This document shows, in pieces, positions 22,009 to 37,028 of a DNA stretch of 39,794 nt. Numbering within the stretch: position 1 is the first letter of the stretch; the number at the start of each line of letters is the position of its first letter. The stretch comes from an uncultured Lachnospiraceae bacterium (GTDB lineage: Bacteria > Bacillota > Clostridia > Lachnospirales > Lachnospiraceae), in NCBI GenBank assembly GCA_948470755.1, contig CAOKPU010000023.1:1-39794 (forward strand). The letters are read 5' to 3'. A program made the position numbers and the translations under genes. Under the pieces are notes generated by a model that saw nothing but the letters and a program-made list of their open reading frames with translations, did not search any database and was not told where the DNA came from.

Positions 22009-24387
22009 TCAGGATTGAAAAGTTGCAATTGTGACGCCGGCATCGCCTTCCCCATGTTCTCCTTGACGGAAAGATTGTACATATTTGACCTTTTTTAGAT
22101 GTCCCTGCACTGCTTTCCTAAGAGCTCCTGTGCCTTTACCGTGTACAATGCGTACGCTGGAAAGATGGGAAAGATAGGCGTCGTCCAAATATTTGTCCAG
22201 TTCTGCAATGGCTTCGTCCACTGTTTTCCCAAGAAGGTTGATTTCCGGGGATATGCTGTAGGATTTGGACATTTTTATATTTCCGGCGCCTGTCCGGGGG
22301 GAAAATGACTTTTTTGTCATTGGTTCGTCTTCGATAAGGACGATGTCGTTGATGTTTGTCTGGGAGCGGAGGATGCCGCATTGGACAAACAGATTTCCTT
22401 TGTGGTCAGGCAGGGAACTGATTGTGCCTTTTAAGCCCATGGAAAGTATTTGCACACTGTCGCCTAATTTTAGCTGTCTCGGGGCAGGCTGCTTCTTTTT
22501 AGGTTGTCTGGCTTTTAAGGAAAGGCTGTCGTTTTTTTCGGAAATTTTGTTCCTTACCTGTTCCCTTGTCTTCTCTAAGTCTTTCATGGAAGCGCCGGGG
22601 CCTGCCTTTTGGAAAACACGTATCGTTTCGTCGGCTATTTCTTTGGCTTCCTGAAGAATGTCTTTGGCCTTTTCATTGGCTTCCCTAAGAATGCGTTCTT
22701 TCGTTTCCTGGATTTTATCTTCTTTTTTCTGGAGTTTGTCTTTTAACTGTTTGATTTCATTTTTATAAGCTGCGATTTCCAGGCGTTCGTTTTCGATCGT
22801 AATGCGGTTGTTTTCCAAATCGGCAAGCAAATCTTCAAAACTGGCGTCGCCCTGGTCAATTTGGGCTTTGGCGGACCGGATGATATGTTCCGGCAGCCCT
22901 AGTTTGGAGGAAATGGCAAAAGCATTGCTCTTGCCGGGAATACCGATTAAAAGCCGGTAAGTAGGCTGCAGCGTATTGATGTCAAATTCGCAGCAGGCAT
23001 TCTCCACATGGGGAGTGGAAAGGGCATATACTTTCAGCTCGCTGTAGTGGGTGGTTGCCATGGTGCGGATATCCTTCCGGTGAAGATAATCCAGAATGGC
23101 AATAGCCAGCGCGGCTCCTTCGGTAGGATCCGTTCCGGCTCCCAGCTCGTCGAAGAGACAGAGGGAGCCTTTATCTGCATGTTTCAATATGGAAACGATG
23201 CGGGTCATATGGGAAGAAAAAGTGCTAAGGTTCTGCTCGATGCTTTGTTCATCGCCGATGTCCGCATAGACTTTGGTAAAAACGGAAAGTTCGGAACGGT
23301 CCAAAGCAGGAATATGAAGGCCCGCTTGCCCCATCAAAGTGAAAAGCCCGACTGTCTTCAGGGAAACCGTCTTTCCTCCGGTGTTGGGGCCGGTAATGAT
23401 CAAAAGGTCAAAATCTCTGCCGAGATAGATGTCAATGGGCACTACCTTTTTTTTATCCAGCAGGGGATGCCTGCCCTTCCTAATGTTGACATATCCGTCA
23501 GTATTAAAAATGGGCGCGGTGGCGTTCTGCTCCATGGCGAGGGAAGCCTTGGCGAAAATAAAATCCAGGGTCGTCATTATTTTTTGATTCTGGGAAATCT
23601 CTTCTATATGGGCAGATGCTTGTATGCTTAAAGCGGCAAGTATTTCTTTGATCTCATCTTGTTCCTTTAAGGCCAGTTCTTTTAGCTGGTTGTTGAGGGC
23701 GACAACGGCAGCCGGCTCAATAAATAAGGTGGAACCGGTAGAGGACTGGTCGTGGATCATGCCGGGAACCTGATTCTTGTATTCGGCTTTGACCGGAATG
23801 CAGTAACGATCGTTGCGCATAGTAATGACTGCATCCTGTAGATAAGTACGGTAAGAACCGCCCAACATCCCTGTAAGCTGGGAGTGTATTTTATCATTTG
23901 TGATGCGGATGCTTCTGCGGATATGTTTTAATTGGGCGCTGGCGTCATCGTTGATTTCTTCTTCGGACAGAATGCAGCGGCGGATTTCATGGGCGAGAGG
24001 GCTAAGAGGTTCCAAAGTGCTGAAAAAATCATCCAGAGAATCTTTTTCCTCGTCTTCCCGTTCCCTTTTACCGTAGGACTTGACGCGGTTTACGTTTTCC
24101 AGAAGGCCTGCGATTTTTAAAAGTTCCCCGATCGATAAAACGCTGCCTATGGTTAAGGATTTTAAAGTATATCCTAAGTCCTTATTTCCACCAAACGAGA
24201 TGGAGCCTTTTCTAAAAAGGCGGGATAAGGCATCGGCGGTTTGCGTCTGCGCTTCATTTATGACATAAATGTCTGTGCATGGCCTTAAATCTTGGCATAA
24301 TTTCCGGCCCAAGTCAGAAGTTGCTTTTTCGGTGAGCATGTCTATAATTTTATTATATTCTAAGGTGTGTAATACTTTTTCATTCAT
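22009..24387 (-). CDS. mutS2: MutS2 ATPase
   Basis: 792 residues, normal for MutS2, which suppresses recombination or rescues collided ribosomes depending on species. Walker A is GPNTGGKTVSLKT and Walker B LCLFDELGAGTDPTEG, followed by the coiled-coil clamp (DKLQKKEDKIQETKERIL). The C-terminal Smr domain has the RIVHGKGTGALR motif. The Smr catalytic segment, normally LDLRG, reads EINLLG here, so the key Asp is Asn and the Arg is Leu; endonuclease activity may be lost. The start is at the edge of repeat copy A. It leads a probable operon with the response regulator and kinase. Confidence 0.96.
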   Translation of the reverse strand: MNEKVLHTLEYNKIIDMLTEKATSDLGRKLCQDLRPCTDIYVINEAQTQTADALSRLFRKGSISFGGNKDLGYTLKSLTIGSVLSIGELLKIAGLLENVNRVKSYGKREREDEEKDSLDDFFSTLEPLSPLAHEIRRCILSEEEINDDASAQLKHIRRSIRITNDKIHSQLTGMLGGSYRTYLQDAVITMRNDRYCIPVKAEYKNQVPGMIHDQSSTGSTLFIEPAAVVALNNQLKELALKEQDEIKEILAALSIQASAHIEEISQNQKIMTTLDFIFAKASLAMEQNATAPIFNTDGYVNIRKGRHPLLDKKKVVPIDIYLGRDFDLLIITGPNTGGKTVSLKTVGLFTLMGQAGLHIPALDRSELSVFTKVYADIGDEQSIEQNLSTFSSHMTRIVSILKHADKGSLCLFDELGAGTDPTEGAALAIAILDYLHRKDIRTMATTHYSELKVYALSTPHVENACCEFDINTLQPTYRLLIGIPGKSNAFAISSKLGLPEHIIRSAKAQIDQGDASFEDLLADLENNRITIENERLEIAAYKNEIKQLKDKLQKKEDKIQETKERILREANEKAKDILQEAKEIADETIRVFQKAGPGASMKDLEKTREQVRNKISEKNDSLSLKARQPKKKQPAPRQLKLGDSVQILSMGLKGTISSLPDHKGNLFVQCGILRSQTNINDIVLIEDEPMTKKSFSPRTGAGNIKMSKSYSISPEINLLGKTVDEAIAELDKYLDDAYLSHLSSVRIVHGKGTGALRKAVQGHLKKVKYVQSFRQGEHGEGDAGVTIATFQS

Positions 24388-24413
24388 AATATTCTCTTTC
24401 TATAAAGTTATTA

Positions 24414-24600
24414 GTGTGAGAAGGACTTCTAATTGCCTTTGGCAATTTCAGCTCAACAGCAAGGGCTGTTTCGCTAAGAAGTCCTACGACTTGCTTTGCA
24501 AGTCTTTCTCACACCGAAAAATGCCTAAAATGCGGCATTTTTCCAGACAAGCTTGCTTGTCTTGGGATTTTGAGATTCCGCGAAGCGGAATCATAGGGGT
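24414..24600 (+). repeat. Modular hairpin repeat, copy A (most complete)
   Basis: Domain 1: GTGTGAGAA (24414-24422) pairs with TTCTCACAC (24506-24514), and GGACTTCT (24423-24430) with AGAAGTCC (24477-24484). Inside this closed stem are three hairpins: AATTGCC/GGCAATT, AACAGC/GCTGTT and GACTTGC/GCAAGTC. Domain 2: GAAAAATGCC/GGCATTTTTC (24516-24543), AGACAAGC/GCTTGTCT (24545-24562) and GATTCCGC/GCGGAATC (24574-24592). It ends ATCATAGGGG. It lies between mutS2 and the HtrA-like gene. The 590-base gap also contains a TTGAAAAATCAG hairpin near 24605-24638 and copy B. It has no coding potential. Confidence 0.85.
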
Positions 24601-24807
24601 TAGATTGAAAAATCAGTTTCATAACTGGTTTTTCAATCGGCAATTTGAGTTAGATTTTATTATAACATATGAAATAAAAAAATACTATTGGGGAAAATTG
24701 TGGATTAAATTGGCTATTTATGCCGGGCGGTATGAAAGGCGCGGGATTAAAGAAATATATCCATTTACATTACCTGGGAAACAGGCTATACTTATCAAAG
24801 CAGCTTG

Positions 24808-24972
24808 AAGAGAAGTCCTGGGGCTTAACAGCAGAGGCTGTTTCGTCAAGGATATCCGGGGTTCGCGCAGCGAACCGTTCTTCACGCGGGAGAATGCCTG
24901 AAATGAGTCATTTCCCTGAACAAGAAAGTTTGTCCGGGGATTTTGAGATTCCGTGAAACGGGATCATGGAGG
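24808..24972 (+). repeat. Modular hairpin repeat, copy B (diverged)
   Basis: The order of blocks matches copy A: aacagc/gctgtt core, the GGGAGAATGCC block, the ATTTTGAGATTCC block. The third domain-1 hairpin is replaced by GGTTCGC/GCGAACC (24860-24876), and the last hairpin is GATTCCGTGAAACGGGATC. The outer stem is lost. The terminal ATCATGGAGG ends six bases before the ATG at 24978, so the repeat end supplies the ribosome site of that gene. Confidence 0.75.
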
Positions 24973-24977
24973 TTTAT

Positions 24978-26333
24978 ATGAACGGAGAGAAACAAAAAAA
25001 AAATACGGGGCCGGAAAATGGGGTGCAGAAACAGGATTCTGATTTTATAACAGAAACAATCAAGCAGCGTCCGATCAATAAAAGAAAACTGTTAAGACAG
25101 ACTTTAATTACGGCAGCTATGGCGGTTGTTTTTTCTTTGGTGGCGTGTCTGACATTTTTGCTGTTAGAGCCGGTAATCAGTAATTGGCTGTATCCGGAGG
25201 AAGAACCGGAACCGATTGAATTTTTGGAAGAGGCGGAAGAAATGCTGCCGGAAGATATGATTGTGGATGATTCGGAGATGGAGCAGGAAGAGGCCCCTGC
25301 GGAAACCATCATTCGGGATGAACAGATACAAAAAATACTGGATAGTATACAGTTGGATATGGAAGACTATGCTGCTATGTACAATTCCATGGCGGAGATT
25401 GCGTCTCGGGCCGGCAAATCGGTGGTTATGGTGACTGGTTCCGTATCGAATGTAGACTGGTTTAACGATCCTTATGAAAGCAAAGGGCAGACGTCGGGGA
25501 TCATTGTGGCAAAACAGCCGAAGGAGATACTAATCCTTGTAAATTATGAAAAGGTAATCGATGCGGAAAGCATTGTGGTAACGTTCTGGAATGGTACGCA
25601 GGGAGAGGCGCGGATACAGGAAAAAGATGTCAATACGAAACTGGCGGTAATTTCCGTATCAATGGAAGGGATGGACAAAGAAACCGCAGACGCGGTTACG
25701 GTAGCAGACCTGACAGCAAGTTCCAGCAGCCGTGCCATAATTGGAAAGCCTGTCATAGCCATTGGCAGTCCGCTGGGAAATGGGGATTCGGTATGTTATG
25801 GGGTGATTACTTCCAATAACGGGATCCTGAATATGGTGGATTCCTATTATAAGATGGTGACGACCAATATTTATGGGAGCCAGAAGGCATCAGGGGTACT
25901 GATCAATATGAAGGGACAGGTGCTGGGGATCATTGATAATTCCCATAACGGCGATGATATGAAAAATCTTGTGTCAGGCATTGGAATTACGGAACTCCGG
26001 AAGGTGGTTGAGCGGATGAGCAACGGGAGGAAACAGGCGTACTTAGGCACCCATGGAACGGACGTGACGGTAGATGCGAATGAAAACCTGGGCGTGCCGT
26101 ATGGGGCGTATATTACGGAAATAGAGATGGATTCCCCCGCAATGGAGGCGGGAATCCAAAGCGGTGACGTTATTGTCAGCATGAAAGAAAAGGAAATCCA
26201 CAATTATGGCGATTTGGTCAATGCTATTATGGAAAGGCAGCCGAATGAAATCGTACCCATTACATTAATGCGGCAGGGGCCGGAAGAATATGTGCAGATG
26301 GATATTAGTGTCACCTTGGGAAATATAGATTGA
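24978..26333 (+). CDS. HtrA/S1C-like pseudoprotease with PDZ domain, membrane anchored
   Basis: 451 residues from the ATG at 24978, chosen for GGAGG. A cytosolic basic N-terminus is followed by one transmembrane helix (about 42-64), an acidic linker, a trypsin-like domain (about 140-345) and a PDZ domain (about 355-450). Compared with HtrA proteases, the catalytic His position is Tyr190, the Asp position is Lys221 (DVNTKLAVI instead of DPxTDLAVL), and GNSGG is replaced by QKASG, putting Ala304 at the nucleophile. The fold is recognisable (IAIGSPLG, MKGQVLGII) but it should not cut protein. It may sense, bind or scaffold. Repeat copies lie both before and after it. Confidence 0.85.
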   Translation: MNGEKQKKNTGPENGVQKQDSDFITETIKQRPINKRKLLRQTLITAAMAVVFSLVACLTFLLLEPVISNWLYPEEEPEPIEFLEEAEEMLPEDMIVDDSEMEQEEAPAETIIRDEQIQKILDSIQLDMEDYAAMYNSMAEIASRAGKSVVMVTGSVSNVDWFNDPYESKGQTSGIIVAKQPKEILILVNYEKVIDAESIVVTFWNGTQGEARIQEKDVNTKLAVISVSMEGMDKETADAVTVADLTASSSSRAIIGKPVIAIGSPLGNGDSVCYGVITSNNGILNMVDSYYKMVTTNIYGSQKASGVLINMKGQVLGIIDNSHNGDDMKNLVSGIGITELRKVVERMSNGRKQAYLGTHGTDVTVDANENLGVPYGAYITEIEMDSPAMEAGIQSGDVIVSMKEKEIHNYGDLVNAIMERQPNEIVPITLMRQGPEEYVQMDISVTLGNID

Positions 26334-26452
26334 AAATCAGCCCGGCCGTTGATCTTACCGCATGATAATCTGTTCTTTTTGGTTATTTTTGCTCATGACA
26401 AAGGCGGTTTCGCTGTTATAAACTATTTGGGACGGTATGGTGGTTGGCGTCA

Positions 26453-26615
26453 AGAGAAGTTCTAAGGCTCAACAGCAAGGGCTGTTTCGCTAAGAACTTC
26501 TAGGCTTTGTGTAGCGAACCGTCCTTCACGCGGAAAAATGCTTAAAATACGGTATTTTTCAAGACAAGCAGGTTTGTCTGGGGATTTTGAGATCCTTCGG
26601 AGCGGAATCATAGGG
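26453..26615 (+). repeat. Modular hairpin repeat, copy C
   Basis: AGAAGTTCT (26455-26463) pairs with AGAACTTCT (26493-26501) around AACAGC/GCTGTT. The arms are swapped compared with copies A and D, while pairing is kept. GGAAAAATGC/GTATTTTTC, AGACAA/TTGTCT and a weakened GATCC...GGAATC hairpin follow. It ends ATCATAGGGG, 40 bases before the yhaM ATG. The remaining gap 26334-26452 holds nothing I can name. Confidence 0.75.
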
Positions 26616-26655
26616 GTAAGGTGGAGAAACAAAAAAAGAAAAGGGATGGAAACAT

Positions 26656-27600
26656 ATGAAGTATATTAAAGATTATAAAGAAGGCGACAGGATATTTGAT
26701 ATTTATTTATGCAAGCATAAGCAATCGGCGGTGACAAAGAATGGAAAAGCATATGATAATGTGATCTTACAGGATAAGACGGGGACGTTGGATGCAAAGG
26801 TCTGGGATCCCCATAATCCGGGAATTGGGGAATTTGATTCTTTGGATTATATTGAAGTGTATGGCGATGTTACCAGCTTTCAGAATTCCCTTCAAGTTAA
26901 TGTAAAACGCATACGTAAATGTCAGGAAGGGGAATATGCCCCGGCGGACTATCTTCCGGTAAGCAGTAAGGATATCGAGGAGATGTATACGGAACTGCTT
27001 GGATACATAAGCGGGATAGGAAACAAATATTTGAAAACTTTGATGGAGTCGTTCTTTGTAATGGATAAGGATTTTATCAAGGCGTTTAAGCAATCGTCGG
27101 CAGCAAAAACGGTGCATCATGGTTTTGTTGGCGGTTTGCTGGAACATACTTTGGGAGTGACGAAGCTGTGTGAATATTATTGCACGGCATATCCGCTGCT
27201 GAAAAAAGATCTGCTGATCAGTGCGGCAATTTGTCATGATATTGGAAAAATAAAGGAGTTGTCGCTTTTTCCGGAAAACGATTATACCGATGAAGGGCAG
27301 CTTCTTGGGCATATTGTGATGGGAGCTGAAATGGTAGGGGAAAAAATAAAGGCTGTCGAGGGATTCCCCCCAACGCTTGCCGGGGAATTGAAACATTGCA
27401 TCCTTGCCCATCATGGGGAATACGAATTCGGCTCTCCGAAAAAGCCGGCCATTATGGAAGCAATGGCGCTGAATTTTGCGGATAATACGGATGCAAAAAT
27501 GGAAACGTTTAAGGAATTGCTGAATAATACAAAGGAAACGGGATGGCTTGGGTTTAACAGGCTATTTGAATCTAATCTTAGGGCAACAAGGATGGAGTAA
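26656..27600 (+). CDS. yhaM: 3'-5' exoribonuclease YhaM family (OB fold plus HD domain)
   Basis: 314 residues. The OB-fold nucleic-acid-binding domain (about 1-95: AVTKNGKAYDNVILQDKTGTLDAKVWDP) is followed by an HD phosphohydrolase-like domain (HHGFVGGLLEHTLGVTKLC, AAICHDIGKIKEL, HCILAHHGEYEFGSP) with the metal-binding histidines and HD pair. YhaM trims RNA 3' ends and has some DNA activity. gene length fits. rlmD starts only 2 bases after its stop, so they are one transcript. Confidence 0.93.
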   Translation: MKYIKDYKEGDRIFDIYLCKHKQSAVTKNGKAYDNVILQDKTGTLDAKVWDPHNPGIGEFDSLDYIEVYGDVTSFQNSLQVNVKRIRKCQEGEYAPADYLPVSSKDIEEMYTELLGYISGIGNKYLKTLMESFFVMDKDFIKAFKQSSAAKTVHHGFVGGLLEHTLGVTKLCEYYCTAYPLLKKDLLISAAICHDIGKIKELSLFPENDYTDEGQLLGHIVMGAEMVGEKIKAVEGFPPTLAGELKHCILAHHGEYEFGSPKKPAIMEAMALNFADNTDAKMETFKELLNNTKETGWLGFNRLFESNLRATRME

Positions 27601-27602
27601 GG

Positions 27603-29075
27603 ATGGAATATAAGAAAAATGATATTCTTACAGTGAAGATCGAAGATATCGGCAACGGCGGAGAGGGTATAGGCAAAGTAAACGGCTATACCCTTTTTGT
27701 AAAGGATGCGGTAATTGGGGACACAGTAAGATGCAAGGTGATGAAGGCGAAAAAAAATTACGGTTACGCGAAGCTGGAAGAGATTATCGTTCCTTCCGCT
27801 GTCCGCATAAAGCCGCAGTGCCAGTATCATAGACAGTGCGGAGGATGCCAGATACAGGCAATGGATTATCCGGCGCAGCTTATTTTTAAACAAAATAAAG
27901 TAAAAAACAGCCTGATGCGGATAGGGGGATTTGAGGAAGAGGCCGTAGAGCAGATAATGGAGCCGATTGTGGGGATGGAGGATGCATATCATTACCGGAA
28001 TAAAGCGCAGTTCCCGGTGGGAAGGGATAAGGAAGGGAATCCGGTGGCCGGGTTTTATGCAGGGAGGACGCATGACATTATTGTCAATACAGATTGCGCT
28101 TTAGGAGCGGAGGAAAATAAGGAAATATTGGAAAATATTTTGACATATATGAAGAAATATCACATTCCGCCCTATGATGAAAAGACGGGAGCCGGATTGG
28201 TTCGGCATGTATTGATACGCAAGGGGTTTGCCAGCGGGGAGATTATGGTTTGCCTTGTGATTAATTATAACGGCAAAAAGGGAAGGGGTGCGGAAGAGGA
28301 GGAAAAGGGGAATGCGGATTTCCTGCCTTATCAGACGGAACTGATAAAAGAGTTGGAAAAAACACATGGTATGACAAGTGTGTCGGTATGTATCAATACG
28401 GAACGGACAAACGTAATTATGGGGGATAAGGTTTATACTATATGGGGAAAGGATAAAATTTGCGATACCATATATAGAAGGAATACAAAAGATTTTTCCC
28501 TGACGGGCGATGGGATTGTCTTTCAGATATCCCCGCTTTCTTTTTATCAGGTAAATCCGTTGCAGACGGAAAAACTGTACAGCCTGGTATTGGAATATGC
28601 CGGATTGGACGGGAAAGAAACGGTATGGGATTTATATTGCGGGATTGGAACGATTTCTCTCTTCTTGGCGGGGAGGGCAAAACAAGTTTATGGCGTGGAG
28701 GTGATTCCGCAGGCCGTTCAGGACGCTAAAGAAAACGCAGAACGCAATGGGATACGAAATGCGGAGTTTTTTGTAGGAAAAGCGGAAGATATATTGCCGA
28801 ATAAGTATGAAGAGGAAGGGATCAGGGCTGACGTGATCGTGGTGGATCCGCCGAGGAAAGGCTGCGATAAAGAATGTCTTGATACTATGCTGAAAATGTG
28901 TCCGGAAAGGATCGTATATGTAAGCTGTGATCCGGCAACGCTGGCCAGGGATCTTAGAGTGCTGTGCGATGGGGGGTATGAGGTGAGAAGGGTTAGGGCG
29001 GTGGATCAGTTTGGGGGGACGGTGCATGTTGAGGTAGTAATAATGATGCAGTATTGTGGAAAAAGAGGGAAATAG
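27603..29075 (+). CDS. rlmD: 23S rRNA (uracil-C5)-methyltransferase RlmD/RumA type
   Basis: 490 residues. An N-terminal TRAM domain (about 1-60) is followed by the 4Fe-4S cysteines CQYHRQCGGCQ and the C-terminal methyltransferase: FQVNPLQTEKL-like ISPLSFYQVNPLQTEKLY, SAM motif DLYCGIGTISLFLA, VDPPRKGCDKEC, and YVSCDPATLARDL with the catalytic cysteine. It adds a 5-methyl group to 23S rRNA uridines. In many Gram-positives the 3' end of this gene is an attachment site for integrative elements, and a recombinase and an accessory island lie just downstream here. Confidence 0.95.
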   Translation: MEYKKNDILTVKIEDIGNGGEGIGKVNGYTLFVKDAVIGDTVRCKVMKAKKNYGYAKLEEIIVPSAVRIKPQCQYHRQCGGCQIQAMDYPAQLIFKQNKVKNSLMRIGGFEEEAVEQIMEPIVGMEDAYHYRNKAQFPVGRDKEGNPVAGFYAGRTHDIIVNTDCALGAEENKEILENILTYMKKYHIPPYDEKTGAGLVRHVLIRKGFASGEIMVCLVINYNGKKGRGAEEEEKGNADFLPYQTELIKELEKTHGMTSVSVCINTERTNVIMGDKVYTIWGKDKICDTIYRRNTKDFSLTGDGIVFQISPLSFYQVNPLQTEKLYSLVLEYAGLDGKETVWDLYCGIGTISLFLAGRAKQVYGVEVIPQAVQDAKENAERNGIRNAEFFVGKAEDILPNKYEEEGIRADVIVVDPPRKGCDKECLDTMLKMCPERIVYVSCDPATLARDLRVLCDGGYEVRRVRAVDQFGGTVHVEVVIMMQYCGKRGK

Positions 29076-29106
29076 GGTGGTTGGGCCACAAGATGTTGTG
29101 GCTTGA

Positions 29107-29154
29107 GGGCAAAAATTGAGCCGAAAAATGGCTGGTTTTTGCCCTATTTTTTTT
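29107..29154 (+). terminator. Rho-independent terminator after rlmD
   Basis: GGGCAAAAA (29107-29115) pairs with TTTTTGCCC (29136-29144), with an inner AGCC/GGCT stem, followed by a T-rich run to 29154. It closes the yhaM-rlmD transcript. The rest of 29076-29561 holds this terminator, repeat copy D and no gene. Confidence 0.88.
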
Positions 29155-29370
29155 ACCCGTTTTTATAGATGCATAGTGCTTTTCTGAGGATGTGCATGGG
29201 TAAAATGGGGATTTGGAGTGATTTGGAGAGAATATGAAGGAGGGATGAGTAAAAAAGATGAATACGGGAAGAAATTCCTTATGAAAGCGCAGAGGAAGGA
29301 ATGCAGATGAATATGTGATGCTGTATGCCGGCGGCATGATGATGACTGCCAGGGTATTGCATGTGAAGTA

Positions 29371-29540
29371 GCGTGAGAAGAACTTCTAATCACTCGCAGC
29401 AGAGGCTGCTTCGCGAAGAAGTTCTACGACTTGCTTTGCAAGTCTTTCTCACACGGGAGAATGCCTGAAATGCGGCATTCTCCGCATTGATTTGAGATTC
29501 CGCGAAGCGGAATCATGGTGGTTAGTGTGAATCATAGGGG
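29371..29540 (+). repeat. Modular hairpin repeat, copy D, at the island's left edge
   Basis: GTGAGAA/TTCTCAC and GAACTTCT (29380-29387)/AGAAGTTC (29417-29424) enclose GCAGC/GCTGC and the GACTTGC/GCAAGTC hairpin, identical to copy A. GGAGAATGCC/GGCATTCTCC (29456-29483) and GATTCCGC/GCGGAATC (29496-29514) follow. The AGACAAGC hairpin is missing. The right end reads ATCATGGTGGTTAGTGTGAATCATAGGGG, as if a second, internally deleted copy (start TTAGTGTGA, end ATCATAGGGG) were fused. It ends 21 bases before the recombinase ATG at 29562. Confidence 0.82.
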
Positions 29541-29561
29541 AACAATTATATCGGAGAGTTT

Positions 29562-31234
29562 ATGACAACAGGGAATACGGCAAAAGAGATTTTACGCTGC
29601 TGGCGCAGGAAAAAAAGAAAGTATCCATAATCCCGGCAAAGCCCCAGTATGACAGGAGCATCAAGCTGTCAGAGAAGGAACTGCGGGTAGCCGCCTACTG
29701 CAGGGTCAGCACCGGGCTGGAAGAGCAGGAAAGCAGTTGTGAGGCACAGGTGGAATACTACACCGGAAAAATACAGGAAACAGAGAACTGGAAACTGGCG
29801 GGCATTTATGCCGATGACGGAAAGAGCGCGGCCAACACCAGGAAGCGTGGCGATTTCAATGCCATGATCAGGGATGCAGAAGACGGCAAGACCGACATGA
29901 TACTGACAAAATCCGTCAGCCGTTTCGCCAGAAATACCGTAGACTCCCTGCTGACCATCCGCAGGCTGAAAGAAAAGAATGTGGCGGTGGTCTTTGAAAA
30001 AGAGGGCATCAACACGCTGGACGGGACCGGGGAAATCCTGATCACCATCTTAAGCAGCCTGGCACAGGAGGAGAGCCGCAACATCAGCGAGAACACCAGA
30101 TGGGGCGTGGTAAGGAAGTTTGAAAAGGGAAAGGCCACTGTCAACCATAACAAATTCATGGGGTACACCAAGAATGAAAACGGGGACCTTGTCATAGCCC
30201 CGGAAGAGGCAGAAACCGTCCGGCTGGTTTTCCGGCTTTATCTGGAGGGATACAGTGCAGGAAAGATAGCAAAGTATCTGGAGGAGCAGAAGATAAAAAC
30301 GGCAACCGGGCTGGAAAAATGGCATGGCACGGTTGTGCTGAAGATGCTCCGGAATGAGAAGTACATGGGTGACGCCCTGCTGCAGAAGACTTACACGGTG
30401 GATTTCATGACCAAGAAAAAGGTCATGAATAAAGGGATCGTGCCGCAGTATTATGTGGAGGATGACCATGAAGCGATCATACCGAAGGATCTTTTTTACC
30501 GGGTGCAGGAGGAACTGGCAAGACGGGCTTCCGTCAATAAGTCAGCAGTCACAAGAAAGAAAAACATGAAAAGCAAATATTCTTCCGGATATGCCCTGAC
30601 GGGAATCCTGCCCTGCGGGGAATGCGGGCAGGACTACCGGAGAGTCGCCTGGGCGAGAAACGGAAAGAAAAAGGTTGTCTGGAGATGCAGCAACCGTCTG
30701 GCCAACGGCACCAAGAACTGTAAGGATTCCGCCACACTGGAAGAGGGTGCATTGAACCGGGCGGTCATGGAGGCCATCCGCCGGACCGCCTGCAATGACG
30801 GAAACTTCGCATCCGCACTCAGGCAGAATGTCATCCGGGTCATCGGAAGCTACGGGAGGGAGCAGAAGCTGGATGAATACGACGAAAAAATCAAGGCAAG
30901 GCAGGAAGAAATGGTGTCGCTGATCGCAGAGAATGCAGCCATCAGCTCCTACACAGACGAATTCGACGAGAGGTACCGCAGGATTGCAGAGGAGATCAGC
31001 GCCTTAAAAGAGGAACAGCCGGAAGCCAGAAGAAGGAAAAAACTGGCAGACAGTTATAACCAGCGGATGAAGAATGTGGATGATTTCCTAAAACAGCAGA
31101 CCTGCCAGATGCCGGAATCTGGCAACGACCTTGTGCGGAGACTGGTGGAAAATATCAAAGTGGTGTCAGCGGACAAGCTGCTGATACAGTTCCAGTCGGG
31201 AATCGTCATGGAACAGGAAATCAGAAGTGACTGA
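29562..31234 (+). CDS. Large serine recombinase, 5' end frameshifted
   Basis: The catalytic domain begins with RVAAYCRVST, whose Ser is codon 29708-29710, and includes KSVSRFARNTVDSL. A recombinase domain, a zinc ribbon (CGECGQDY ... CSNRLANGTKNCKD) and a coiled-coil tail follow, as in transposon and ICE integrases. The catalytic frame is open from 29531 but has no ATG, GTG or TTG before the Ser. The best start is ATG 29562 with cggagag upstream, in another frame; it runs 22 codons to a stop. A run of seven A at 29610-29616 joins the two frames by a -1 shift. An in-frame GTG at 29750 would lose the catalytic Ser. Possibly a pseudogene, a sequencing error or slippage. It is richer in GC than the next genes. 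Confidence 0.85.
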
Positions 31235-31311
31235 AGTTCAGGCAGGGATGACAACGGAACAGGGAAATGTGGTTCCTGCCTGTGAAAGAAATTCTGTGGA
31301 TTTACGGTAAG

Positions 31312-31343
31312 AATAAAATGCCTGGAGAGCCGGGCGTTTTATT
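31312..31343 (+). terminator. Hairpin terminator after the recombinase
   Basis: AATAAAATGCCTGG (31312-31325), loop agag, and CCGGGCGTTTTATT (31330-31343) form a 14-bp stem with two G-T pairs. The T/A-rich flanks suit termination in either direction. Another paired segment, CAGGCA...TGCCTG with GGAAC/GTTCC inside, lies at about 31237-31282. Confidence 0.75.
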
Positions 31344-31394
31344 GTTGGCGTAAGCACAACAGGAAATGCCACAGCAGAAAAAGTAGAAAATGAA

Positions 31395-31423
31395 TTGAGA
31401 GTTGATGTGCATATTGTTATAAT
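31395..31423 (+). promoter_or_regulatory. Strong promoter for the DUF5677/HEPN pair
   Basis: TTGAGA (31395-31400), a 17-base spacer and TATAAT (31418-31423), with TGT just before the -10 (31415-31417), form a near-perfect extended promoter 53 bases before the start at 31476. The -10 nine bases TGTTATAAT are identical to those at 34200-34208. Confidence 0.75.
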
Positions 31424-31475
31424 GAAGATGTATCATTTGGAGTTATGAATAGATTTAGTGAAATGGAGAACCGTT

Positions 31476-32444
31476 ATGAATAACGATTATATAAAAATTT
31501 TTAATGAACTGTTTTATGATGTTCAGAAAGATGAAGAAATGAATGCACTGGTAGCAGATATTTGTGAGTGGTTAGGTAGTGTTATTATAAAGTATGGGGA
31601 AGTGGTAAATGAGTTTCAATATCGGAAGGAGGAAGAAAAAGATGTACTTACTGATATGGTGGTTGCATTGTTTTTGAGAAAAGTAATGGAGCACATAGAT
31701 GCAATAATTATTTTAATAGAAAAGAGTGCATTTTCGCAGGCTCAAATTATATTACGAACCTTGTTAGAAACGGTAGTAAGTCTGAAGTTTATATTAAAAG
31801 AAGATACGGAAAGGCGAGCTGCAGCATATTATTTGTATCATCACTATGAGGAATTAGAAAAAATTTCATTTTTTGATGAGAGAAAGAAAATTGGAAAAAT
31901 GATGAAAGAGAATATAGGCGAGGAAGCACATAAAGATGTTCTAAAAAAAATAGAGGCAAAGAAAGAAGCGTTTAAGAGATTAATAGCGAATAATGATTTG
32001 TTTAAAGAGATAGATGACTTAAGAAACCAAAAGATAAAAGAAAAGATAAAGAAATACCCAAAGGAGCAACCACATATCCAATGGTATCAGATATGTGGTA
32101 GTGTAAAGAATTTTGCTGGACTTATGAGAGATGTAGGATGGCAGACATATTATAGTACTATATATGGCGGGATGTCTATGGAAACACATGGATACAATGC
32201 AACAGTAGAGGTGGTGCCGGATAAGGATGGTTTACATATGAAATGTTTACGAAATCCATTGAATGGTTATAGTACTGTTGAATTAACAGGAACATTTAGT
32301 GTGAGTGCATTGAATGATGTATATGAGTATCTACAGGATGGAAAAGAGGAAAGAGAAGAATTTAGGGAGTATTACAGAGGGTATATGGAGAAAAGAAAAT
32401 ATATACAAACGAGATATGAACAACTTGTTAATTCTGGTGAATAA
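31476..32444 (+). CDS. DUF5677-like protein
   Basis: 322 residues from the ATG at 31476, preceded by GGAG seven bases upstream; a GTG six codons earlier is poorer. It is mostly helical. SQAQIILRTLLETVVSLKFIL (R94-x3-E98) and RAAAYYLYHHYEEL, with the later GGMSMETHGY (His238), resemble DUF5677, a family of unknown function found in accessory regions. No signal or membrane segment is seen. It is followed 24 bases later by the HEPN-motif gene, so the two are cotranscribed. Codon use is more A/T-rich than in the recombinase. The family call is from memory of its pattern. Confidence 0.68.
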   Translation: MNNDYIKIFNELFYDVQKDEEMNALVADICEWLGSVIIKYGEVVNEFQYRKEEEKDVLTDMVVALFLRKVMEHIDAIIILIEKSAFSQAQIILRTLLETVVSLKFILKEDTERRAAAYYLYHHYEELEKISFFDERKKIGKMMKENIGEEAHKDVLKKIEAKKEAFKRLIANNDLFKEIDDLRNQKIKEKIKKYPKEQPHIQWYQICGSVKNFAGLMRDVGWQTYYSTIYGGMSMETHGYNATVEVVPDKDGLHMKCLRNPLNGYSTVELTGTFSVSALNDVYEYLQDGKEEREEFREYYRGYMEKRKYIQTRYEQLVNSGE

Positions 32445-32468
32445 GATTTGAAATTATGAGGGTGAAAT

Positions 32469-34076
32469 ATGGATTATGAAATAGAATTTACAATGATTGA
32501 GATAAAAGATATCGGCAAATTACAAAAAAGTGAGTTAGTAAAAGATGAAACTTTTGCGGCAGAGATAACGCAGGTAAGTGATTTATCAGAAGCATATTGT
32601 AGGGAAATAATGAGCAGGGTTGAGTCTATGATGCCAGAAGGATGTAGTGTCAGGTATATTGGGTGTACAGAGAGAATTGGGAATTATGAGTTTTGCATAT
32701 CTGGCGGTCAACTTGAGTATACAGTAATTCTTCAACAAAACACTTATGAGTGGAATCTGCAATTGGCAGTTAAGATTGGCTATAAAAAGAATAGAAATGG
32801 GTTGTCAGTTATTAAAACTAAAGAAACATTGACAGGATATGACCATTTATTGGAAGACATAAAATTATGCATTAAAAATGCCATAATAAGAGACTGGTAT
32901 AAATGCGTTTGGATAAAAGACAATCAGTCATTGGCTTTATCGGGAGAAGTATACTCAGAAATATATAAGGCTGAAAATGAACTTCGTGCATTTATCAATA
33001 AAGTAATGGTAGAGCATTTTGGAATTGAGTGGAATGACAGACCGGAATTTTATAAATTGAATGCGAGCATTGAGGAGAATAGTGTAAATATAAAAAGAAA
33101 TGTACCTAATTTCAGTAATATAGATGTCAGCCTTTATACTGTAACATTGGAAAAGTTAATGGAAACGATAAAGGCTGATATTTATTCAGATGCTATGCCT
33201 GACAGTCCTGAAATCCAAAAAATGATAAAAGAGAGAATATTTGAAACAACACAGTTGGAAAAAATGAGAGCAGCATTGGATTTTTTGAAAAACAGATATA
33301 TTAAGAAATATAATATATGGGAAAGATTCTTTTTGCCGTTCATTAGTGAACCAACAAAATGGGAAGACTTATTAAGTGCTTTTATTTCTAATAGAAATCA
33401 TGTGGCACATAATAAATTATTAGATTATTCGGCAAAAGAAAAAATGCTTGAAGATGTAAGAGAATTTAGAAAATGTATTCGAGAAGCTGTTGCACAGTTT
33501 GATTTAGAAAATCGTTCTGAAGAAGTGGAAGAGACATTGCAAGCCATCGAGGATCAGCGAGAATATGAAAGAGAAGCAAGATTAGAAATAATTGAATCTG
33601 AATCTGGCGTAAAGATAAGAGACAAAAAGGCGATATTAGAATTGTTTCAGGATACGCTAGATGATATCTACACAGATACGGTTGACACATTGTATTTTAA
33701 TGAATATATTGAAATTTCAGAACAGAATGATTTACAAAATATAACAAGTGATCAATTATTACTTGCTATAGGCAATAAGCATGGCAAGCGGTTAGAAATT
33801 TATGGTGAGTTGGATATTGATGATTCAGAAGGGGCAGGAAGTACACTGAATGTTAAGATATTTGACGGAGATGAAAATGTCTCTAATGTAACGATTGAAT
33901 ATACGAATGGAGAAGCTGAGTATTATTCTGAGCAGACATCTTATATGCCGGTGGTGCAGGATCAGTATGATGCCGGTGGTGCTGAAACTATCAAAGAAGT
34001 CATTGGAGAGTTTTTATTGAGGGAAGAAGATGCGGTTGCTGATTATTTAGCAAGAAGACAAGCTGAAGAAGATTGA
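32469..34076 (+). CDS. HEPN-motif protein, possible RNase, in a candidate defence cassette
   Basis: 535 residues. A helical segment YKAENELRAFINKVMVEHFGIEW (about 166-188) and the later SNRNHVAHNKLLDYSAKEKMLEDVREF (about 307-333) resemble HEPN domains. R309-NHVA-H314 fits the RX4-6H motif that forms the active site of many HEPN RNases. About 340-390 is a charged coiled coil. The C-terminal 150 residues (DTLYFNEYIEISEQND ... GEAEYYSEQTSYM) are beta-rich and unrecognised. The first 165 residues are also unrecognised. It sits behind the DUF5677 gene in an island. RNase activity is predicted, not shown. Confidence 0.72.
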   Translation: MDYEIEFTMIEIKDIGKLQKSELVKDETFAAEITQVSDLSEAYCREIMSRVESMMPEGCSVRYIGCTERIGNYEFCISGGQLEYTVILQQNTYEWNLQLAVKIGYKKNRNGLSVIKTKETLTGYDHLLEDIKLCIKNAIIRDWYKCVWIKDNQSLALSGEVYSEIYKAENELRAFINKVMVEHFGIEWNDRPEFYKLNASIEENSVNIKRNVPNFSNIDVSLYTVTLEKLMETIKADIYSDAMPDSPEIQKMIKERIFETTQLEKMRAALDFLKNRYIKKYNIWERFFLPFISEPTKWEDLLSAFISNRNHVAHNKLLDYSAKEKMLEDVREFRKCIREAVAQFDLENRSEEVEETLQAIEDQREYEREARLEIIESESGVKIRDKKAILELFQDTLDDIYTDTVDTLYFNEYIEISEQNDLQNITSDQLLLAIGNKHGKRLEIYGELDIDDSEGAGSTLNVKIFDGDENVSNVTIEYTNGEAEYYSEQTSYMPVVQDQYDAGGAETIKEVIGEFLLREEDAVADYLARRQAEED

Positions 34077-34199
34077 AATGCAGATGCAGCGGATATTACA
34101 GAAAGTAACTAGTTCTCCATAAATAAGGAAGGACATTTTTGCTTTTTATAGCATAAGAGGAAAAGAGTATACTGAACAGTGGTAAAATAGTACAAGGGT

Positions 34200-34208
34200 T
34201 GTTATAAT
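34200..34208 (+). promoter_or_regulatory. Extended -10 promoter for the AlbA_2 gene
   Basis: TGTTATAAT is the exact extended -10 consensus, 46 bases before the ATG at 34255. TGGTAA lies at the -35 position with a 17-base spacer. So the AlbA_2 gene can be expressed apart from the DUF5677/HEPN pair. Confidence 0.65.
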
Positions 34209-34254
34209 TTATTGTAGATAAAAATGGCAGAAAAGGAAGAGGAGATATGTTTGT

Positions 34255-35652
34255 ATGAACTTAGAAGAAATTCTTGCAGGAGAATCTAAAACCATAGAAT
34301 TTAAAGAAGAGCTGCCGGCAGATAGCAAAAAATACATGAAAACAGTAGTTGCCTTTTCCAATACTGCTGGCGGAAAAATAATTATTGGAATTTCAGACAG
34401 AACAAAGGAAATTATAGGAGTTCCCAAAGAGAAAGTATTCCAGATTATGGATGGAATTATGAACGCGATAACTGATATGTGTACACCGCAGATTATTCCA
34501 AATATAACATTGCAGGGCATAGAAGATAAAACATTAATAGTAATCGAGGTTTACCCCGGAAAACAAAGACCATATTATCTTGTGTCAGAAGGTAAGGAAA
34601 GTGGGACTTATATAAGAACAAACGGAAGTTCAAGGCATGTAGATAGTACACAATTAAAGGAATTAGAATTTGAAGGGGCGAATAAATATTTTGATCAGAC
34701 CTATGCAGTAGGTCATGAAGCCACAGAAGAACAAATCACCGGATTGTGCAAGGAGATGAAGCAGTTTGCTCTTACAGCTTGTGAGACAGAGAACGAAAGA
34801 AAATCTGTAAAAGAGGTAACACAGGGAAATTTGTTGTCATGGGGAATATTGATAAAACAGGAAAATAAGATATTGCCGACAAATGCATTTGTGCTGTTGA
34901 CAGAAAATGATTTCCCGCAGGCAAAAATTCAATGTGCGGTATTTAAAGGAACAACAAGAAGCGTCTTTATTGATAAGAAAGAGTATACAGGCCCTATTTT
35001 TAGACAGATAGATGAAGCATATCAATTTGTGCTTCGAAACATTAAGTTAGGTGCTAAAATTAAGGGGTTGGTCCGGGTGGATTCTTATGAAATTCCAGTA
35101 GACAGTATTCGAGAGTTGATAATTAATGCCGTAACACATCGAAGTTATTTGGATGAGGGTTGTGTTCAGGTTGCAATTTTCGATGATCGTATAGAGATAA
35201 CTTCTCCTGGAATGCTGTTTGGCGGTTTGTCGATTGAGGATATTAAGGCAGGTCAATCTCGTCCTAGAAATAGAGCAATTGCGGCAGCATTTTCTGCAAT
35301 GAAATTGATTGAACAATGGGGCTCAGGAATTCCCAGAGTAATTGAAGAATGTAAGGGATATGGTTTGAGAGAACCAGATTTGATTGAATTAGGAATGAGC
35401 TTTAGGGTTAATGTTTATAGACCATCTGAGGAACAAAGTGAGGTGGTGTCAATACAAAAGAAAAAAGTGTCAAAGGTGGATATGGTTATAGAATACCTAG
35501 AAAAAAATGGTACAATCTCAACATCAGAAGTAATGCAGTTATGTGGATATAAGTCTAGAGGAGCAGCAAGAAAGGTGCTTAGCAAAATGGCAGATGATAA
35601 TTTAATTATTTGTGCTGGCAGAGGGGCACAAATACATTATGAGAAGAAATAG
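34255..35652 (+). CDS. Schlafen/AlbA_2-domain protein with ATPase-like and winged-helix domains
   Basis: 465 residues. The N-terminal AlbA_2 (Schlafen-like) domain is seen in ESKTIEFKEELPADSKKYMK, VVAFSNTAGGKIIIGISD and GTYIRTNGSSRHVD. A GHKL/HATPase_c_4-like segment follows (PVDSIRELIINAVTHRSYLD, with VAIFDDRIEITSPGML and QSRPRNRAIAAAF ... LIEQWGSGIPRVIEECKGYGL). The last 60 residues form a helix-turn-helix (ISTSEVMQLCGYKSRGAARKVLSKM). Such proteins act as regulators or as parts of anti-phage systems. ggaagaggag lies 13 bases before the ATG, rather far. It is in the same strand and island as the DUF5677/HEPN pair. Confidence 0.85.
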   Translation: MNLEEILAGESKTIEFKEELPADSKKYMKTVVAFSNTAGGKIIIGISDRTKEIIGVPKEKVFQIMDGIMNAITDMCTPQIIPNITLQGIEDKTLIVIEVYPGKQRPYYLVSEGKESGTYIRTNGSSRHVDSTQLKELEFEGANKYFDQTYAVGHEATEEQITGLCKEMKQFALTACETENERKSVKEVTQGNLLSWGILIKQENKILPTNAFVLLTENDFPQAKIQCAVFKGTTRSVFIDKKEYTGPIFRQIDEAYQFVLRNIKLGAKIKGLVRVDSYEIPVDSIRELIINAVTHRSYLDEGCVQVAIFDDRIEITSPGMLFGGLSIEDIKAGQSRPRNRAIAAAFSAMKLIEQWGSGIPRVIEECKGYGLREPDLIELGMSFRVNVYRPSEEQSEVVSIQKKKVSKVDMVIEYLEKNGTISTSEVMQLCGYKSRGAARKVLSKMADDNLIICAGRGAQIHYEKK

Positions 35653-35680
35653 TGGTCATTTATAAAGAAGAATGACCACT
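35651..35680 (+). terminator. Hairpin at the end of the AlbA_2 gene
   Basis: AGTGGTCATT (35651-35660) and AATGACCACT (35671-35680) form a perfect 10-bp stem that starts inside the stop codon. A third AATGACCA follows at 35682. There is no T run, so it may be a weak terminator, a binding site or a repeat. Confidence 0.45.
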
Positions 35681-35752
35681 AAATGACCAGTAAATAGCCA
35701 CTAATAGTGCTGGCTGTGGTAATTGTGTTTTGAATATAGTGTGAGGTTTCAT

Positions 35753-35986
35753 ATGAAAGATTATGAGAAAATAGGGGATCATACAATTAAAAAATTTGAA
35801 CTTGTCAGTGAGTATGCAAAAGGCTGGGCTCATAATCAAAAGTAGGAAATACCTACAGAGGAAAGTGTCGAAGAGGTTTTTTATTCTGTGACGCAAATGC
35901 TGTCAACAGAAAGCAGAAACCATGCGAGGCTGGGAGAACTGGCAGATATATCGGTGTATAGTCTGCCTATTACTTTCCGGCAATAA
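35753..35986 (+). pseudogene. Small gene interrupted by one TAG codon
   Basis: MKDYEKIGDHTIKKFELVS...AHNQK runs 30 codons, then TAG at 35843-35845. The same frame continues EIPTEESVEEVFYSVTQML...ADISVYSLPITFRQ to TAA. The two halves share one frame with no other stop, which supports one gene of about 77 residues disabled by a single nonsense change. I do not recognise the family. The first half weakly resembles N-termini of three-Cys-motif partner proteins. If the stop is real, only the 30-residue fragment is made. Confidence 0.5.
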
Positions 35987-36014
35987 GTTTGCCTATTATA
36001 TAAATATTGAACTA

Positions 36015-36043
36015 CTGACAATTTGCGGTTCAAAAAGTACAAT
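36015..36043 (+). promoter_or_regulatory. Promoter for the large XRE regulator
   Basis: CTGACA (36015-36020), a 17-base spacer and TACAAT (36038-36043) each differ from consensus by one base. The start codon is at 36075, giving a short leader. Confidence 0.65.
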
Positions 36044-36074
36044 GAAGGTACAAAATACGAACGGAGGAATGATG

Positions 36075-37028
36075 ATGTCACGCAAATTTGATGAATATAT
36101 GGAAGACAAATTTGAAATATACGGAGAGTTGTTCTCTTTAATAGAGCCGGAAAGCACAAAAGACTTGATGGAAGCATTAGATATAAAGGAAAAGATTCAG
36201 AATCAGATAAATAGTCTGATGCACGATGAAGACTCCTCTGGATGGTGTAATCTTCTTAAACAACAAGAAGACTACATATCCCAATATATAGAGTCTTTGG
36301 GTGATTTTGATAACACTGTGCTTACAAACAATATAGGATATTTTCTTAAGAAGAATAATATGCGTATTGGTGAGTTGGAGGAACTCTTGGGTATCAGTGC
36401 AGGTTATATTTCCAGAACAGTCAAAGAAGACTCAAAGAAAAAGATGAGCATTGATATCGTTTGGAAAATTGCCAAAGTATTTGATACCGATATAAGAACC
36501 TTAACAGAAATCGAATTGTGGGTTTCTCATAACAATACGGATTTGTTAAAGAAATTTCTTGAGAAACTTTATATAGACACGAGGGATAATTACTTCAGTT
36601 GGGAGTATGAAGGTGGTGTAATGGTTGCCCTCAGTGAACGTTTTGAAAAATCGGGTCTTATAACAACTGAGAAAGATGACAAGTGCGTTTATCATCCACA
36701 GCATTTGAACAAAGAAGTGAAGTGGATTTTAAATAAGGACATTGTAAGTCTTGAGTGTTTTGATAAGACCAAAGATTTGGCAATTATCCCTTATATTGCT
36801 GAAAGAAAAGAGAACCTTCGAGGGTATGATTTTATCTTAATTTGGGAAGACGGAGAAGAGGTATGTTGGCAGAAAGTATTCTATACAGCAGATGACCCAT
36901 TTGGGCATTTATTAGAAGGTGCTGACAAATTATACTCTTTAATTGAGGATGCAGAGTTTGATGCAAAGCTAACACCGAATATACATCAACTTATATCTGA
37001 ATATGTGGAAGGAGGTAGACCTGATTGA
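36075..37028 (+). CDS. XRE-type HTH protein with unknown sensor domain
   Basis: 317 residues from the third of three tandem ATG codons (36069, 36072, 36075); GGAGG at 36063-36067 best fits the last. Residues 1-75 are helical and acidic. A helix-turn-helix follows at about 78-135 (NNIGYFLKKNNMRIGELEELLGISAGYISRTVKEDSKKKMSIDIVWKIAKVFD). The C-terminal 180 residues (YFSWEYEGGVMVALSERFEKSGL ... GYDFILIWEDGEEVCWQKVFY) are unrecognised and could sense a ligand. It may control the island cassette. It has its own promoter. Confidence 0.8.
   Translation: MSRKFDEYMEDKFEIYGELFSLIEPESTKDLMEALDIKEKIQNQINSLMHDEDSSGWCNLLKQQEDYISQYIESLGDFDNTVLTNNIGYFLKKNNMRIGELEELLGISAGYISRTVKEDSKKKMSIDIVWKIAKVFDTDIRTLTEIELWVSHNNTDLLKKFLEKLYIDTRDNYFSWEYEGGVMVALSERFEKSGLITTEKDDKCVYHPQHLNKEVKWILNKDIVSLECFDKTKDLAIIPYIAERKENLRGYDFILIWEDGEEVCWQKVFYTADDPFGHLLEGADKLYSLIEDAEFDAKLTPNIHQLISEYVEGGRPD

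Follow-up and report, generated by a model that had tools for sequence, protein, structure and literature searches.

A dispersed, folded repeat of Lachnospiraceae that is probably a non-autonomous mobile element adapted to operon messenger RNAs

The window analyzed here, 39,794 nucleotides (nt) from an uncultured Lachnospiraceae bacterium (contig CAOKPU010000023.1 of assembly GCA_948470755.1), contains four copies of a hairpin-rich repeat, called A to D, which lie on the forward strand at 24412-24603, 24801-24976, 26445-26620 and 29369-29525, the sites at which an earlier note, made from the sequence alone, had placed them. These copies probably represent, with a likelihood that we put at about two in three, a non-autonomous mobile element of Lachnospiraceae that is ~110-190 nt long and adapted to the messenger RNAs (mRNAs) of operons. 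In the proposed mechanism the element would insert in the sense direction at gene junctions and in 5' leaders, would be carried on mRNA, and would persist inside operons by virtue of two ends that keep both neighbouring genes translatable. Its fold would be kept by a mobilizing machinery that recognizes the sense strand (as RNA or single-stranded DNA) or, alternatively or in addition, because a folded spacer is tolerated or useful in mRNA, and its spread would require a trans-acting enzyme. We found no earlier description of the family in the literature searched, which was mostly other than subscription papers, and the four copies have no match in Rfam at gathering or permissive thresholds.

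The note's term, a dispersed repeat, understated the abundance of this family. As a BLAST query, copy A has 82 matches in the 3.0 Mb home assembly (G000), and a covariance model (R1) built from 31 copies has at least 113 matches there at E up to 0.01, some of which are fragments; as 150 of 1066 candidates were scored in this genome, the family counts are lower bounds. The fold consists of a helix P1 (GTGTGAGA/TTCTCACAC) around an inner hairpin (P2) and an optional P3, followed by P4, an optional P5 and P6, and this helix order is identical and directional in all 31 full copies chosen for alignment. Hairpin modules of the element can be present, absent or swapped: the common unit lengths of 139, 157 and ~175 nt differ by whole modules, and P3, P5 and a TTGCCTTTGGCAA hairpin are present or absent as entire blocks in the 31-copy alignment. 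The family seems to grow by the uptake of whole hairpins. One copy (L017:1326-1601) has three additional hairpins between P3 and P4. The exact tail ATGGNGGTTAG occurs 66 times in the home genome, against 5 occurrences of a reversed control. The unit has no transposase of its own, 139-192 nt being too small to encode one. Between contigs, copy identity reaches 98.7% for the 157-nt form and 99.3% for the 139-nt form, so some of the dispersal is recent, and several copies are found at contig ends, so the repeat probably breaks assemblies.

The earlier note had also proposed that paired changes between copies A and D reflect selection on folding. All three of the stem changes it quoted are in the sequence; in the third, from AACAGC/GCTGTT to CGCAGC/GCTGCT, the outermost bases also become a C-T mismatch. 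Among 88 matches from other genomes (85 sense copies plus 3 weak antisense echoes), both sides have changed in 45 of 48 pairs and 97.8% of cells can pair, compared with 78.6% in shuffles and 40-44% when the partner is slid by one base, which refutes the alternative that paired changes are no more frequent than chance. Selection on folding is upheld by a tree-aware null, in which the inferred substitutions of each column were placed randomly on a FastTree tree in 60 simulations and covariation was scored by a G-test with average-product correction: over all pairs of the 85 sense rows, 11 of the 39 structure pairs in well-filled columns, and none of 8739 others, reached E<0.05, with the caveats that the tree is approximate, given recombination between copies, and that a model-fitted alignment leans towards the structure. 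These alignments show that the fold of the sense strand is conserved and covaries.

Whether this fold acts as RNA or as a DNA cruciform had been left open, and the data favour a sense single strand, most simply RNA. A double-stranded cruciform under selection would accord with the many long perfect stems of the element, but cruciforms extrude both strands, so equal tolerance of G-T and A-C would be expected, whereas the paired columns of two alignments (after removal of antisense rows, 26 of 112 and 3 of 88) contain 208 G-U plus U-G cells and 80 A-C plus C-A cells. The fold also has a preferred direction relative to genes, which counts further against a cruciform. Because of this G-U excess, the sense orientation of copies and their fusion to translation signals, a single sense strand is the better description of the selected molecule, and the cruciform is highly improbable.

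Gene context was analyzed for 69 of 112 matches in the home genome (antisense echoes, fragments and some tandem neighbours being omitted) and for 54 of 88 matches in same-genus species, a portion of the same-genus loci. Codon scoring of both flanks revealed that the next gene is co-directional with the element in 91 of the 98 copies that could be assigned (51 of 52 in the home genome and 40 of 46 in same-genus species), while 17 home-genome and 8 same-genus copies had a short flank or gave no clear orientation. The stop codon of the upstream gene could be placed in 78 of 123 copies, since 8 had too little flank and 37 had no co-directional coding sequence upstream. This stop is the leading TAG of the element in 36 cases and the TGA of its TGTGA in 14 (50 of 78 in total), so that the 5' end of the element brings stops in two frames; of the other stops, 9 abut the element, 3 lie 1-3 bases before it, 12 are further upstream and 4 are inside it. 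At the opposite end, a start codon (of a frame of at least 60 codons) is found one base past the tail GGNGGTTAG in 18 of 49 non-tandem intact copies, and no other offset from 0 to 40 is used by more than 4 of them; 21 of 70 intact tails run head-to-tail into a next element. The 89 native left flanks are purine-rich and C-poor before the TAG, as a Shine-Dalgarno sequence would be, and relatives from other genera have similar ends, including copies in ribosomal-protein operons that follow genes read as rpsE and rpsH. Copies appear to bring their own stop codons and an end that resembles a ribosome-binding site. In one locus (L328, minus strand near 2941; C19:50-60), a copy directly follows an apparent native coding sequence that reads ATGGCGGTTAG. 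Because this native ATGGCGGTTAG is identical to the element tail, the tail motif may also serve as the target.

A conserved multi-branched fold before genes that ends in a Shine-Dalgarno-like sequence could also be a cis-regulatory RNA (a riboswitch, attenuator or Shine-Dalgarno-masking element) that is placed by function and not by mobility. The tail has a predicted partner, most often a conserved AUUU located 33-35 nt from the 3' end, and a weak pairing of this kind is often predicted. In most intact copies this AUUU stretch is 5' of P6 and its predicted pairing with the Shine-Dalgarno-like tail is largely G-U, an arrangement reminiscent of fourU thermometers. However, the four bases after ATG in the tail have a mean predicted pairing probability of 0.58, below the value of 0.75 obtained with shuffled upstream sequence (53 intact-tail copies), so the tail is somewhat more open in these predictions than its composition would suggest, with partial masking possible. 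In addition, no common class of gene was noticed among the neighbours, although no systematic test was made, and regulatory placement does not fit the tandem arrays, the near-identity of copies beside unrelated genes, the mosaics and copy numbers that are very unequal between species. A purely cis-regulatory origin is, for these reasons, very unlikely.

Genome comparison reveals near-identical copies at unrelated loci, head-to-tail tandems and occupancy that varies between species. For example, the htrA-like gene of the window has close orthologs in 13 other members of the genus; both covariance models identify A, B and C at the home locus and nothing at the 13 other loci at E up to 0.1 (~1.5 kb of flank was included for each, apart from L093, a truncated locus whose upstream region is missing). 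Occupancy also differs at syntenic sites of genomes G153 and G164, and one pair of loci (L220 and L219) represents a filled and an empty site with flanks that are 96.5% identical, in which the left junction is located at the stop codon and the right junction is imprecise. Most copies have TAG or TA at both ends. At some intergenic sites both G153 and G164 are filled, by different versions of the element (L107/L138, L126/L115 and L131/L110:5056), suggesting that these shared sites are old occupied ones whose contents were later replaced or converted.

A second element, 'type 2', has a different fold and a different start (ATTGAAAAATC), and has the tail GGNGGTTAG and the insertion context in common with the first type. 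Type 2 units occur, among other sites, at L003:1349-1482, around 2921 in L090 and at L216:3639, and the two types recombine, as mosaics of them are present in L013, L176 and L181. The loop of type 2 is able to form a pseudoknot with downstream sequence in L216, L090 and L084, and L090 differs from L084 by a compensated change; weaker candidates in L268 and L116 were not counted. One type-2 insertion in G164 has TAAAAG on both flanks. Because the ends are shared, these data suggest that one mobilizer serves both types.

Two types of enzyme were considered as the mobilizer. In the first case, the repeat would be akin to REP/REPIN or IS200/IS605-derived elements, with hairpins that are moved as single-stranded DNA, in trans, by a Y1 (HUH) transposase and an RNA fold that is incidental. 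This proposal fits the lack of terminal inverted repeats in the 10 copies tested and of any duplication seen, the strand-specific fold with a hairpin ~12 nt before the 3' end, the tandem copies and the preference for TAG at the insertion point, and both compensatory stem changes and tandem clusters are also described for REPINs (PMC3116915). Across the genus, the Y1 domain PF01797 is found in 13 of 16 members without tracking copy number, and the Y1 transposase was rejected as mobilizer on this disagreement. PF01797 is absent from the home genome, with its at least 113 matches, and from G150; G153, with 37 matches, has a PF01797 fragment alone (a 60-residue frame and a stop); and G156, G157, G158 and G160, which lack any model match, have 1, 3, 5 and 10 PF01797 domains. 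Furthermore, REPINs are inverted doublets, whereas the present repeat is a directional multi-helix unit, and a Y1 mechanism leaves the fusion to stop and Shine-Dalgarno-like signals without explanation. We consider it doubtful.

In the second case, a reverse transcriptase would copy the co-transcribed folded RNA and insert it at junctions that match the RNA 3' end, a form of retroposition that would accommodate the sense orientation, the tolerance of G-U pairs, the mRNA-signal-like ends and the imprecise right junctions. Among genus members, the reverse transcriptase domain RVT_1 passes the cut-off in 8 of the 11 that have a model match and in 1 of the 5 that have none, but this association is weak because 4 of the 5 match-less members are small or less complete assemblies, and RVT_1 was matched in neither the home genome nor G159. 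Retroposition is rather unlikely on this evidence. Neither Y1 transposases nor reverse transcriptases clearly follow copy number in the genus. A longer autonomous version was sought through tail sites that lack a model match, and no enclosed gene was noticed in the 7 regions read (all of 8 but L330), which contain truncated copies, type-2 units or tail-like native sequence. A bolder proposal is that these repeats define a mobile class that spreads via sense RNA, homes on stop/Shine-Dalgarno/start junctions and rebuilds them so that the operon keeps working, with two types, one of them pseudoknotted, that share one mobilizer; this proposal is speculative and we give it little weight.

Several observations weigh against a mobile element with ends adapted to operon mRNAs. 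Right junctions are imprecise in the empty-site comparisons, and site 4 of the comparison between G153 and G164 looks like a loss and not an empty site, because part of the element start survives at the 'empty' site. A clean target-site duplication was not seen, left flanks repeating the tail in TAG alone (one flank/tail comparison is indicative only, as some tails were mis-set). The tail is intact in 70 of the 123 copies examined, and 31 of the 49 non-tandem intact copies do not have a start codon at +1. In addition, the predicted pairing of the tail exceeds 0.5 in 35 of 53 copies, so a ribosome-binding role is not assured. Strand-biased mutation and model fitting may have raised the ratio of G-U to A-C cells. 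Copy A is not intercistronic, as it is located between divergent mutS2-like and htrA-like genes. Finally, neither a Y1 transposase (PF01797) nor a reverse transcriptase domain (RVT_1) was found in the home genome, the assembly of which is 92.5% complete.

Several known systems share features with the repeat. Group II introns have a 5' end of GUGYG, which the 5' GTGTG and strand-specific fold of the present unit recall, but the unit is much shorter, has no group II match in Rfam and has first bases that vary between species. A GTTAG in the unit may likewise resemble the core of integron attC sites. The common view of small interspersed repeats is that they persist at sites where the damage is slight, and the enrichment of BOX elements between convergent genes (PMC3049150) is one example.

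Within the portions of the published accounts drawn on here, prokaryotic miniature inverted-repeat transposable elements (MITEs) are defined by terminal inverted repeats (PMC3049150). The present family resembles MITEs in being short, non-autonomous, folded and mostly intergenic (PMC10969869), and differs in that terminal inverted repeats were not seen: when the head was compared with the reverse complement of the tail in 10 of the 69 home-genome copies, none was above the 95% value of shuffles. REPINs, inverted doublets that are proposed to be moved by RAYT proteins in the part of the source consulted (PMC3116915), are likewise small, non-autonomous, hairpin-forming and extragenic, sometimes occur in tandem and have compensatory changes; in contrast, no Y1 enzyme was found in the home genome and the present unit is a directional multi-helix structure, so that, by the features tested and on that partial account, the family is not a REPIN.

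The closest working likeness is to the BOX elements of Streptococcus pneumoniae, for which the material used from Croucher et al. (2011; PMC3049150) describes terminal inverted repeats, target duplications, enrichment between convergent genes and demonstrated transcription. As far as that material goes, both are modular interspersed repeats, mostly <200 nt, with ordered modules, optional internal blocks, a stable predicted RNA fold, proposed non-autonomous mobility and clustered or nested copies. On the same partial basis the differences are that inverted ends (10 copies tested) and an established duplication were not seen in the present family, that its co-transcription is read from position alone, and that its copies tend to precede a gene that runs in the same direction, their ends merging with a stop signal on one side and a Shine-Dalgarno-like one on the other. 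By analogy, then, the family is most like a BOX-type small interspersed repeat with ends that are unusually adapted to translation signals, and its placement is the opposite of BOX, since most copies precede a gene, in sense, and many are inside operons. If its mobilizer and target rule were found, the element would offer a natural insertion that leaves polycistronic expression intact.

In many Lachnospiraceae genomes the repeat is, in addition, a strongly folded feature that can be counted, and no annotation was found for it. Matches at E up to 1e-5 are present in 11 of the 16 genus genomes, home genome included, and a broader covariance model identified relatives in at least 30 of 397 sampled Lachnospiraceae genomes (25 of 334 genera). 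In a sample of the class, 4 of 391 genomes had a match, and one of these (G730, with two matches) lies outside Lachnospiraceae. The number of candidates scored per genome was 73 in the genus survey, 8 in the Lachnospiraceae and class surveys and 20 in one further scan, which makes the counts lower bounds; 'no match' in these surveys applies under stringent filtering, with a model fitted to copies already known. A degenerate DNA pattern retrieved at least 113 stretches from a collection of 84,980 species. Among the 80 matches listed, 67 are named Lachnospiraceae, Acetatifactor, Roseburia, Lachnoclostridium or Kineothrix, and of the 82 stretches given to the model (these 80 plus two viral contigs), 80 match it and two, in L235 (Clostridium sp.) and L239 (labelled Flavobacteriales), do not. 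Bins with the unrelated names Gastranaerophilales and Muribaculum match the model, from which we infer mis-binning. Copies on two IMG/VR contigs (L307:9434-9746 and L308:7154-7290), one of them in tandem, perhaps stem from prophages or host flanks.

Within the window, the four copies are in different states. Copies A (192 nt; R1 E 1.2e-45) and D (157 nt; E 2.0e-54) are intact and their folds are much stronger than those of dinucleotide shuffles (z -8.0 and -6.4; 0 of 200 shuffles as good in either case), and B (E 2.8e-36) and C (E 1.9e-35) look older and decayed because their folds barely beat shuffles (z -2.1, 5 of 200; and z -1.9, 9 of 200). In copy A, the P1/P2/P3 junction (24414-24514), which is supported by the minimum free energy (MFE) structure and by covariation of helices 1, 2 and 4, has GTGTGAGA...TTCTCACAC (P1) around GGACTTCT...AGAAGTCC and GACTTGCTTTGCAAGTC. 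This is followed by P4 (GAAAAATGCC...GGCATTTTTC; 24516-24543; MFE structure and covariation), the optional P5 module (CAGACAAGCTTGCTTGTCTTG; 24544-24564; a whole block that is present or absent among the 31 aligned copies) and P6 with the tail (GATTCCGCGAAGCGGAATC, then ATAGGGGTTAG; 24574-24603; 31-copy alignment and MFE structure). Copy A has both an additional hairpin, ATTGCCTTTGGCAAT, and the P5 module; it starts 24 nt past the start codon of the divergent mutS2-like gene, and is therefore antisense to that gene. Directly behind it, also on the forward strand, is a type 2 remnant (ATTGAAAAATCAG...CTGGTTTTTCAATCGGCAATTTGAG; 24604-24649), recognized as inverted repeat I7 and by its intact relatives.

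The gaps between housekeeping genes to which the earlier note had assigned all four copies do hold A, B and C, but copy D is located between genes for an RNA methyltransferase and a serine recombinase. Copy B is placed between the htrA-like gene and the promoter-like site of this gene (TTTACA-17-TATACT; forward strand, 24764-24792), similar sites to which precede the htrA-like gene in most of the 13 relatives, which lack copy B. Its 3' end provides GGAGG (24968-24972) before an ATG at 24978, and a second in-frame ATG is at 24966. Copy C is between the htrA-like gene and an HD-domain (YhaM-like) gene. Copy D was recognized by its tail pattern as well as by the model, with the tail ATGGTGGTTAG at 29515-29525, and a distant blastn search with this copy found no match in plasmids or phages. 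At the Rfam gathering threshold the whole window contains a single tRNA and nothing else, and permissive settings added, in 24000-30000, two sub-threshold matches, both of them unrelated. Past copy D, the region 29750-37028 encodes a large serine recombinase, then a DUF5677 gene, a gene without a Pfam match, an AlbA_2/Schlafen-type gene and a helix-turn-helix (HTH) gene, and is perhaps an integrated mobile segment that adjoins this copy.

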